Shown: positions 27,361 to 48,113 of the stretch, piece by piece
Layout of the letters: each line of letters opens with the position of its first letter
Numbering within the stretch: position 1 is the stretch's first letter
Source of the DNA: Cytophagales bacterium
GTDB lineage: Bacteria > Bacteroidota > Bacteroidia > Cytophagales > Cyclobacteriaceae
Assembly (NCBI GenBank): GCA_017303795.1
Contig: JAFLBR010000005.1
Span: forward strand, 248,001-312,000
Length of the DNA stretch: 64,000 bases
Reading direction: 5' to 3'
The notes under the pieces: model-generated
What the model saw: only the letters and a program-made list of their open reading frames with translations
What the model was told of the DNA's origin: nothing
The model's database searches: none
Position numbers and translations under genes: made by a program

Positions 27361-27392
27361 TTCCAGATTTGCAAAAATATGTAAATCTGGAA
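27361..27392. repeat. Palindrome copy 1 upstream of the DUF4143 ATPase
   Basis: TTCCAGATTTGCA pairs with TGTAAATCTGGAA (13 bp with one G-U pair) around a 6-nt loop AAAATA. It starts 5 bp upstream of the ATPase ATG. Confidence 0.85.
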
Positions 27393-27397
27393 TCAAT

Positions 27398-27429
27398 TTC
27401 CAGATTTGCAAAAATGTGTAAATCTGGAA
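27398..27429. repeat. Palindrome copy 2 upstream of the DUF4143 ATPase
   Basis: Identical to copy 1 except for one base, which falls in the loop (AAAATG). The copies are 37 bp apart in direct orientation. Together they fill most of the gap to sdaA. Confidence 0.85.
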
Positions 27430-27447
27430 TTTATGGTAAAATGAAGC

Positions 27448-36948: not shown

Positions 36949-39843
36949 TTACGCCTCTGCTTTTTCGTATTCTTCCATCGGCAAGCAACTGCACACCAGG
37001 TTACGATCACCGTATGCATTATCTACGCGGCTTACGCTTGGCCAGAATTTAGTTTCTTTTACAAAGGCAAGCGGGTAAGCGGCTTTTTGTCGTGAGTAAG
37101 GTCTGGTCCACTCATCGGCTGTAATAACCGCGGCCGTGTGGGGCGCATGTTTCAATACATTATTTTCTTTATCGGCCTTACCTTCTTCTACTTCCCGAAT
37201 TTCATTTCTGATTTCAATCAACGCTTCTACAAAGCGATCCATTTCAGCTTTCGGTTCGCTTTCGGTTGGTTCAATCATTAAGGTACCCGCTACCGGAAAC
37301 GAAACTGTCGGTGCATGGAAACCATAATCCATCAAACGCTTGGCAATGTCTTCCACTTCAACACCGGCTTTCTTAAAGTCGCGGCAATCCACAATCATTT
37401 CGTGGGCGCAGCGACCGTTGGTGCCGGTATATAAAATTTTATAGTGACCGTTCAATCGCTCTTTAATATAGTTGGCGTTGAAGATAGCCAGTTTGGTTGC
37501 GTTGGTTAATCCTTCGCCACCCATCATGGCAATGTATGCATACGAGATAATCAAAATGCTGGCACTACCATAAGGTGCTGCCGATACAGCTGAGATTGCT
37601 TTCTCGCCACCGGTTTTTACAACCGCGTGTCCGGGCAGGAAAGGTTTCAGTTTATCATTCACGCATATAGGGCCCATGCCAGGGCCACCACCACCGTGTG
37701 GAATACAAAATGTTTTATGCAGATTTAAGTGACACACATCGGCACCAATGTTGGCAGGCGATGTTAATCCAACCTGTGCATTCATATTGGCGCCATCCAT
37801 GTAAACCAATCCACCATTCTTGTGAATGGTTTCGCAGATTTCAATAATCGATTCCTCAAACACTCCGTGTGTAGAAGGATACGTAACCATTAAGCATGAT
37901 AACGTGTCTTTGTACTGTTCGGCTTTTGCTTTCAGATCGGCTACATCAATTTTTCCTTCCGCATCCGATTTTACTACAACCACTTCCATGCCCGCCATTA
38001 CTGCACTGGCCGGATTAGTTCCGTGTGCCGATGCCGGAATCAACGAGATGTTTCTGTTTTTATCATTACGACTTTCGTGATACGCACGGATTACCATCAA
38101 CCCGGCATACTCACCTTGCGCTCCGCTGTTAGGTTGTAGCGATACACCTGTAAAGCCTGTAATTTCTTTCAACCAGTTTTCCAGGTTGGTAATCATTTCC
38201 TGATAGCCCAATGTTTGATCTGCCGGAGCGAAAGGATGCATTTGTCCCAACTCAGGCCACGTTACCGGAATCATTTCGGTAGTGGCATTGAGTTTCATAG
38301 TACACGATCCCAACGAGATCATAGAATGCACCATGCTTAAATCTTTATTCTCTAATTTTTTAATGTAGCGCAGCATTTCATGTTCGGAATGATGCGCGTT
38401 GAATACGGGGTGGGTAAGGAATGGTGAAGTGCGGATTAAGGATGAAGAAAGTTTTGCACCCTCACCCCCTTCCCCTCTCCCTGGGGAGAGGGGTGTCCCA
38501 ACGGGACGGGGTGAGGGACTTAATACCGAAAGAATATTCTCAACATCACTTACTGTAGTTGTCTCATCAATTGAAATCCCAACATGATTATCGGAAAAGT
38601 ATTTGAAATTAATTCCGGCAGCTTCTGCTTTTTGTTTAATAGCACTCTTATCGGCTACAGCCAACTTTAATGTATCGAAGTAGTTTGCGTTAACTTGCTT
38701 TACACCCAGTTTTGCCAAACCGCTTTCTAAGAGTTGTGCGAGCGCGTGGATTCTTCCAGCAATTTTTTTTAAACCCTCCGGGCCATGATATACAGCATAC
38801 ATGCTGGCCATTACAGAAAGCAATACCTGCGCGGTACAAATATTAGAAGTTGCTTTCTCTCTGCGAATGTGTTGCTCGCGGGTTTGCAACGCCATGCGAT
38901 AGCCGGGGTTTCCCGATGCATCTATCGAAATACCAATTATCCTTCCGGGAATTTGTCTTTTGAATTCATCTTTGGTTGCAAAGAAGGCTGCATGCGGACC
39001 ACCAAAACCCATCGGTACACCAAAACGTTGTGAGTTACCCACCACTACATCGGCACCCATTTCGCCAGGCGATTTGGTGAGAATCAAACTCATTAGGTCA
39101 GTGCCCACAACTACAAACACATCTTTTTCATGGGCAGAAGCAATCAGGTTGGTATAGTCTTTTACCTCGCCATTATTATCTGGGTTTTGCAGGTAAACAG
39201 CAAACAGATCGGGGTTGGTAAGATCTAAAGTATTCAGGCTACCAATCTGTAAAGTAACACCGATAGGTGTAGAGCGGGTTTTTAATAAATCAATTACCTG
39301 CGGAAAAGTATTTTCATCTACGAACAACGTGTTCGCAGTTTTTTTATTCGCTTTGCGCGATGCGTATAATAAATGCATGGCTTCGGCTGCAGCCGTAGCT
39401 TCATCTAATAAAGATGCATTGGCAATCTGCATTCCCGTAAGGTCAATTACCATAGTTTGATAATTGATCAACGCTTCCATGCGGCCTTGTGCAATCTCTG
39501 CCTGGTAAGGCGTGTAGGCGGTGTACCAACCCGGGTTTTCTAAAATGTTGCGCAGAATTACGCCAGGTGTAATGCAGTTATAATAACCTGTACCGATGTA
39601 CGATTTATAAATCTTGTTTTTAGAGATGAGTTTTTTGAAGTTGTTCAAAAACTCAAACTCAGATTGCGCAGCCGGCAGGTTTAAATTTTTCTTCAACCGG
39701 ATGTTGGCCGGTATGGTTTGGTCAATCACTTCATCTACTGATTTTGCTTTTACAACTTTCAGCATTTCTGCGATCTGCTTTTCGTCAGGGGCGTTGTGGC
39801 GGCTTTCAAATTTTTCGGAGTAGGTGGGATTGATGATGCTCAT
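36949..39843 (-). CDS. gcvP: Glycine dehydrogenase (decarboxylating), P protein
   Basis: PLP-dependent P protein of the glycine cleavage system, 964 residues with the N and C halves fused as in E. coli. Landmarks: [17 protein letters not shown] near residue 80, [14 protein letters not shown] near 270, [20 protein letters not shown] near 480, [26 protein letters not shown], the PLP lysine in [19 protein letters not shown] near 710, and [11 protein letters not shown]. Oddity: at about residues 442-462 the reading frame runs through a palindromic repeat, giving the Pro/Gly-rich stretch [16 protein letters not shown]. The frame stays open and the element sits in the linker between the two halves, so the enzyme is probably active. 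Confidence 0.96.
38459..38517. repeat. Three-way-junction palindrome inside gcvP
   Basis: Outer stem CCCTCACCCC (38459-38468) with GGGGTGAGGG (38508-38517). It encloses two hairpins: CCCCTCTCCC (38472-38481) with GGGAGAGGGG (38484-38493), and GTCCC (38495-38499) with GGGAC (38503-38507). It is very G/C-rich compared with its surroundings and is translated as part of the P protein. Confidence 0.9.
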
Positions 39844-47964: not shown

Positions 47965-48113
47965 AATAACCACGACCTTTAGGTCGTGGGGTGATAAACG
48001 AAATGGAATTTGGCTTCCTGCCCGTCCGGGAGGCGGGTAGCCAAAAATCTATTGGGCTAAAGCCCACTATTGCTTCATTTTGTTTTTTCCCCGACCTAAA
48101 GGTCAGGGTTATT
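47965..48113. mobile_element. MITE-like / REP-like element with inverted ends
   Basis: In the 388-bp gap between secDF and the response regulator. The left end begins AATAACCACGACCTTTAGG and is about 27 bp (47965-47991). The right end (48089-48113) read on the minus strand begins AATAACCCTGACCTTTAGG. Similarity continues inward (AAACGAAATG against AAACAAAATG). Each end is itself palindromic. Inside are two more hairpins, TGGCT...AGCCA and TGGGCTAAAGCCCA (48052-48065 region). It has no coding capacity. No target duplication is evident. Confidence 0.75.

Follow-up and report, generated by a model that had tools for sequence, protein, structure and literature searches.

Coding palindromes are known from Rickettsia (RPE); their sequences and sizes reportedly differ from those of the family described here, and we know of no nuclease partner for them. 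DUF559 is a widespread nuclease family without an assigned role, of the PD-(D/E)XK, Vsr-like type. One of its members, Caulobacter VsrA, is reported to be responsible for the SOS response in cells lacking the cytosine methylase, and the authors suggest accidental breaks there (PMC12907096). Since the 1990s the Box C/PIT/TM repeats have been recognised, with neither a function nor a mover assigned to them (PMC4666352), and the 23 TM copies of E. coli K-12 are described as lying between genes in every case and as having no tie to mobile genes (PMC4666352, Holder et al. 2015). The repeat reported here differs from the K-12 TM copies as presented in that paper (intergenic, PMC4666352) in that 10 of its 28 copies are coding and its motif is tied to DUF559. 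Our literature searches, with most subscription papers outside their reach, found in print neither a link between DUF559 and palindromes nor palindrome-nuclease units lying in frame in LeuS.

Results

A folded palindromic element in the linker of GcvP

The window, i.e. the whole stretch of 64,000 nucleotides analysed (C20:248001-312000 of the genome G000, 4.87 Mb in 24 contigs), carries a 59-bp palindromic element inside gcvP, with the following parts:

36949..39843, minus strand: gcvP, glycine dehydrogenase (P protein), 964 aa, host of the insert (TIGR00461 gcvP, 1419.6 bits)
38459..38517, minus strand: palindromic element, 59 bp, GcvP residues 443-462, with related copies in its own genome
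38459..38468, no strand: outer stem, arm CCCTCACCCC (single-strand DNA fold)
38508..38517, no strand: outer stem, arm GGGGTGAGGG (single-strand DNA fold)
38472..38493, no strand: hairpin 1, stem of 9 bp CCCCTCTCC/GGAGAGGGG and loop of 4 nt, the conserved hairpin of the family (fold and core alignment of 15 own-genome copies)
38495..38507, no strand: hairpin 2, GTCCC-AAC-GGGAC (fold and comparison with other copies)
38460..38491, minus strand: predicted class II triplex-type core (pyrimidine-purine-purine) CCTCTCC..GGAGAGG..GGGTGAGG, read on the gcvP coding strand (G000:C20:286460-286491:-)

Folded as single-strand DNA, the element formed an outer stem of 10 bp and hairpins of 9 bp (4-nt loop) and 5 bp (3-nt loop), with an energy of -24.4 kcal/mol and a z-score of -5.46, and none of 200 shuffled sequences folded equally well, so that the fold proposed in the initial annotation, a 10-bp outer stem around two hairpins, was borne out. 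Its location within the coding region of gcvP with the frame kept open was likewise confirmed, 38459-38517 lying wholly inside 36949-39843; the assignment to the linker stood too, while the residues involved proved to be 443-462 and not 442-462. The core pattern was found once within the 64-kb window (expected, 0.00), and Rfam yielded no matches in the window at gathering thresholds.

NCBIfam models for GcvPA and GcvPB matched residues 20-439 and 484-912 of GcvP, respectively; since the first stops at 439 and the second starts at 484, the insert falls in the joint between these halves, which in other organisms are two separate chains. Chains A and B of 1wyt matched residues 20-404 and 488-880. 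In a structure model of moderate quality (mean pLDDT 67), the insert appeared with low confidence as a coil between two helices, including the low-confidence stretches 445-451 and 453-463, and because further stretches of the protein also scored low, the model lends weak support to a disordered linker.

The nearest named GcvP relatives came from Cytophagales-type metagenome genomes and shared 81-82% identity. Inspection by eye of 80 other GcvP proteins, all from named records, revealed the residues of the insert in none of them; these residues are thus not conserved across distant GcvP proteins, and the copy was missing in 12 of 13 aligned relatives. The linker is, even so, not altered solely in this genome: GcvP of the congener G011 (locus L113) has, at this linker and with the frame unchanged, its own shorter copy devoid of hairpin 2, which may represent either a shared ancient insertion or a second, independent one. 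The linker measures 22 residues in G000 versus 13 in the congener G008, and the net change in GcvP is small because the insert replaces some of the linker codons.

The element belongs to a dispersed family with coding copies

A strict core pattern had 28 matches in the own genome, one single place being counted on both strands (C11:83662/83676), and the reversed pattern none; the gcvP element is therefore not the only copy there. The strict pattern was present in 13 of 21 congeneric genomes, with no reversed match in any of the 21, and in 33 of 148 genomes of the phylum, again with none for the reversed control in the rows of that search. The class II plan is found in the gcvP core with one mismatch in seven, and for the 28 copies it is implied by the search pattern itself. 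Alignment of 15 own-genome copies revealed that hairpin 1 and the third strand are common to them; hairpin 2 was missing in other copies or swapped for unrelated palindromes such as CCTCGTTCCTCGG and GTCAGCCTCAGGCTGAC. When the 59 bp were used as a blastn query, no match was obtained in the E. coli collection at E 0.01 and seven records were retrieved from the plasmid collection. Two of these seven were examined: in one the match lay within a DNA-methyltransferase gene and in the other it adjoined a hypothetical gene, and DUF559 was not seen in the portions viewed of either record.

Ten of the 28 strict matches lie in frame, inside nine genes. Six hosts were named by NCBIfam models as HrpB helicase, UvrA, AlaS, Ada, the conjugative-transposon TraG ATPase and N-acetylornithine carbamoyltransferase; the others are gcvP, leuS, with two copies, and one ORF without a family match, which has the copy within its first residues. 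Eight of the ten coding copies are read in the sense direction of the core and two in the antisense direction. Two more copies supply tails, one at the C terminus of an ABC-transporter-like ORF and one for a DUF559 gene itself; two open frames (L003 and L176) were left out of the in-gene count because the element precedes the likely start. All 29 cores contain a stop in a single sense frame only (GGG TGA), and the remaining five of the six frames are open in 26 to 29 of the 29, encoding a linker peptide rich in Pro, Gly, Ser, Arg and Glu. With five open frames and a peptide of this type, a surface loop would therefore tolerate an insertion whose length fits.

Several of the sites are empty in relatives, indicating that the coding copies were inserted and are not ancestral. 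In the carbamoyltransferase the site reads TETF-QEKR-KPKIVL in G001 versus TETWNSPLLRRGVGGEAIKPKIVL in G000, and related inserts were found in G008, G009, G011 and G024; HrpB has no insert in G008 and G011, and AlaS is short at the insert site in G026 and G001. TraG of G026 has about 12 extra codons beside LFPC, whereas G008 and G009 continue straight into this motif. The inserts in gcvP and traG of G000 are accompanied by the loss of neighbouring codons, so these two are not clean insertions and are likely to reflect insertion plus trimming. No target-site duplication was visible in the coding cases compared with relatives. Both options put forward in the initial annotation, a tolerated linker insertion and a repeat family with coding inserts, thus hold together, given the 10 of 28 copies in nine genes and the empty sites.

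A 599-aa stretch of a frame that we read as mutase-like (L168, G011:C202:7800-9600) also contains two in-frame copies, about 730 bp apart, with no nuclease between them.

Whole palindrome-nuclease units within LeuS and other proteins

The two copies inside leuS are inverted, about 430 bp apart, and bracket a DUF559 domain (PF04480, E 1.6e-30 to 2.4e-35). This unit sits in the editing-domain loop that precedes VFTTRPDT, a loop that by sequence is filled in 7 congeners and empty in 8, and by match coordinates also empty in G006 and G021. The structure model of the LeuS insert was poor (mean pLDDT 42, six sequences), the nuclease part being its best-scored stretch. DUF559 was also found within LeuS of G079, MetH of G061 and G100, and IleS of G001, within HsdR of G039 and G158 at differing places, and beside or inside further restriction-modification proteins. 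Its nature as an insert is plain in MetH and in the aminoacyl-tRNA synthetases; in the restriction enzymes it may be a working nuclease domain instead. The host frames are open throughout, and no intein family was detected at E<=1e-6 in ten DUF559-host ORFs.

The LeuS loop before VFTTRPDT holds an A/T-rich stretch of the type AATTCAAAATTCAAAATT or ATTCTCAATTCTCAATTCT (peptides IQNSKFKI and LNSQFSI) in L318, L319, L320, L323 and L324 (G019, G024, G009, G007 and G012, respectively), and a peptide resembling these, PNSKFxIQNF, is present at a second loop of LeuS. These A/T-rich stretches may constitute another in-frame repeat family.

Palindromes are physically associated with DUF559 genes

DUF559 matched by sequence the endonuclease-like protein 3hrl and, weakly, both a PADLOC homing-endonuclease model (E 5.5e-4) and 3r3p, annotated as 'Mobile intron protein' (E 0.13). 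The surroundings of DUF559 genes were scanned with a sequence-independent detector that requires a 7-nt pyrimidine arm, its exact complement and a mirrored third strand that has at most one mismatch. Across 68 loci of the phylum, several of which had pattern coordinates nearby already known before the loci were fetched, the motif was found in 62 of 133 flanks within 300 bp versus 4 of 257 flanks at 600-1200 bp (Fisher p 2e-29). It was present on at least one side of 44 loci and was not found by the detector at the other 24. The set comprised 28 new loci of other genomes and 40 further matches down the E-value list, the own-genome locus L182, a second own-genome match and some same-genome repeats having been left out. 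Applied to the control family PF05635, the same detector scored 0 of 60 near flanks and 0 of 30 loci. This control, the S23/IVP four-helix-bundle protein, had earlier been considered as the content of paired palindromes and rejected, that content being DUF559.

In G000 a strict copy lies no more than 50 bp from each of the two DUF559 genes. The genus yielded 20 DUF559 matches, two of them partial (L193 and L194) and dropped; of the 18 full matches, 14 had a strict or relaxed copy within 120 bp, three of these (L185, L188 and L196) resting on three-substitution matches to the relaxed pattern, and 4 had none. At the genome level, the pattern occurred in 11 of 12 congeners with full-length DUF559 versus 2 of 9 without it (p 0.002, uncorrected for phylogeny), G003 and G012, which have partial matches, being scored as lacking it. 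The exceptions were G002 and G005, with one copy each and no DUF559, and G007, with DUF559 and no strict copy. In the phylum, DUF559 was found in 26 of the 33 pattern-bearing genomes versus 52 of 115 others (p 0.0007, likewise uncorrected for phylogeny), leaving 7 of the 33 without a DUF559 match.

Five genomes devoid of the strict pattern, picked by eye for clear palindromes, carry different palindromes beside DUF559, with 22, 12, 12, 7 and 6 matches to their own palindrome; each genome matched only its own stretch of the joined palindrome query. Outside the phylum, 16 of 35 DUF559 records were picked to span genera (Cyanobacteria, Deinococcota and Proteobacteria), and the motif was near 10 of these 16 loci, with 3 of the 16 also having it farther out; the other 6 had no near motif, although several of them, inspected by eye, have palindromes whose arms are shorter or mixed. 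The K-12 genome of E. coli has TM no. 9 (1,351,204-1,351,239, PMC4666352) 167 bp from ycjD, for a chance expectation of 0.005. ycjD is a DUF559 gene (PF04480, E 1.4e-49). No PF04480 match was reported in the E. coli genome that served as control in those searches, so not every E. coli seems to carry DUF559 at that place.

Other palindromes in the genome and the window

A Y1 transposase gene (L025, G000:C1:104784-105128, PF01797) has CCGTCCCGTTAGGGACGG upstream and CCGTCCCTACGGGACGG downstream, in a REP/RAYT-like arrangement, and hairpin 2 of gcvP, GTCCCAACGGGAC, is one base short of the core of that palindrome, GTCCCTAACGGGAC. Within the window, positions 47965-48113 hold two inverted 25-nt arms 99 nt apart, each with a palindrome around CGACCTTTAGGTCG or CGACCTAAAGGTC and with more G/C palindromes between the arms, forming a repeat-like element, and the palindrome TTCCAGATTTGCAAAAATATGTAAATCTGGAAT occurs at 27361-27430 in two tandem 33-nt copies.

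Discussion

The palindrome family, its in-frame insertions and its strong physical association with DUF559, whose members carry different palindromes in different genomes, together form the pattern expected if nuclease and palindrome are one mobile unit from which the solo palindromes derive as short forms. We consider it probable that gcvP carries a solo copy, lacking the nuclease, of a mobile palindromic element linked to DUF559, retained because it can be read as protein. An element of this kind would consist of an outer stem, one conserved hairpin with its mirrored purine third strand and an optional, variable second hairpin, and the full element would be a DUF559 nuclease gene between two palindromes; units of this kind are read in frame in LeuS and at other places. 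Movement of the palindromes by the nuclease, and its mechanism, are our inference from these arrangements: the nuclease would act either on the target or on the palindrome in its folded state, and repair synthesis would copy the palindrome into the break, with or without the nuclease gene, somewhat as RAYT transposases spread REPs and homing endonucleases enter conserved genes. The simplest account would be that folded DNA, or the target, is broken and then mended by copying in the palindrome.

The repeat might also be passive, multiplied by replication slippage, template switching or gene conversion with no dedicated enzyme, DUF559 genes serving as landing places or shelters. TM motifs are linked with instability and have no mobile gene with them in E. 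coli according to PMC4666352, 7 of the 33 pattern genomes have no DUF559 match, and no target duplication was seen, all of which would suit such a repeat. It should be considered, however, that landing places or shelters would hardly produce the contrast between near and far flanks and between DUF559 and PF05635, nor the five unrelated palindromes each dispersed in the very genome whose DUF559 it flanks. Moreover, the motif is near 9 of 11 host-embedded DUF559 loci (L201-L206, L208, L213, L216, L221 and L227) despite their coding flanks, and we regard passive spread as unlikely. Movement by a host Y1 (HUH) transposase, as in REP/RAYT systems, appears highly improbable: the genome does have five PF01797 matches, four of them above the cut-off, and the locus L025 is flanked by its own palindrome CCGTCCCGTTAGGGACGG, close to gcvP hairpin 2, but neither the strict pattern nor exact 9-mers occur within about 1.5 kb of any of the five Y1 loci.

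The hairpin could instead have a selected function and owe its retention to a role of its own in gcvP, in transcription, in the mRNA or as a protein linker, without being a mobile repeat. The copy in the same linker and frame of G011 would fit, and sites filled in several congeners could signal usefulness; nevertheless, most GcvP relatives have no copy (12 of 13 aligned, 80 of 80 by eye), copies occur in unrelated genes and between genes, and the confidence of the model is low over the insert, as in a disordered linker. Such a function therefore seems very unlikely to explain the element.

The reading of the gcvP element as a solo copy of a DUF559-linked mobile element admits a bolder extension, to which we give even chances: a large class of orphan palindromic repeats in bacteria, with Box C/PIT/TM among them, would owe its movement to DUF559 nucleases, each element being a Vsr-like nuclease gene between inverted, structure-forming palindromes whose ends double as protein linkers, and each nuclease lineage with its own palindrome. 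If so, the palindrome ends would be ready-made linkers and the element could therefore enter essential genes in frame, either with the entire nuclease domain, as in LeuS, IleS and MetH, or with nothing but the palindrome, as in gcvP, alaS and uvrA. In several phyla, as well as in E. coli K-12, the data join DUF559 with Box C/PIT/TM-type repeats. They also reveal a route by which mobile DNA gives conserved enzymes linkers and even whole domains, and they account for Pro/Gly-rich stretches such as LTPNPSPxERG and PLSxGRGxGGEG in the proteins of bacteria of this kind, peptides for which our literature search found no report.

Comparison with known systems

Like the RPEs, the present repeats are palindromes read in frame in unrelated conserved proteins, here the products of nine genes, whose counterparts in relatives are free of them; Rickettsia belongs to another phylum. 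With REP/RAYT systems the family shares a small enzyme gene lying between palindromes that are also dispersed singly, DUF559 standing in place of Y1; it differs in that the enzyme is of the PD-(D/E)XK type (DUF559) and not a Y1 HUH transposase, and in that solo copies are found in coding sequence as well. The resemblance to Vsr-like homing endonucleases lies in a nuclease frame within conserved genes whose sites are empty in relatives (the LeuS loop being filled in 7 congeners). Unlike homing endonucleases, these inserts have no intein domain in ten host ORFs and the nuclease domain stays in the protein, joined to it by palindrome-encoded linkers; besides, there is a dispersed palindrome family.

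Closest in plan are the Box C/PIT/TM(ECO) repeats, which have the same pyrimidine arm, complementary purine arm, short spacer and mirrored purine third strand, with the same single T, and which are likewise dispersed, multi-copy and G/C-rich (here 28 matches, against none for the reversed control). The literal TM(ECO) consensus, CCCTCNCCC N3-6 GGGNGAGGG N3 GGGNGAGGG (PMC4666352), fits 1 of the 28 copies, and not that of gcvP. Judged from its sequence, the repeat is thus not a TM(ECO) by literal consensus; by its plan, it belongs with the Box C/PIT/TM repeats, as a predicted triplex type.
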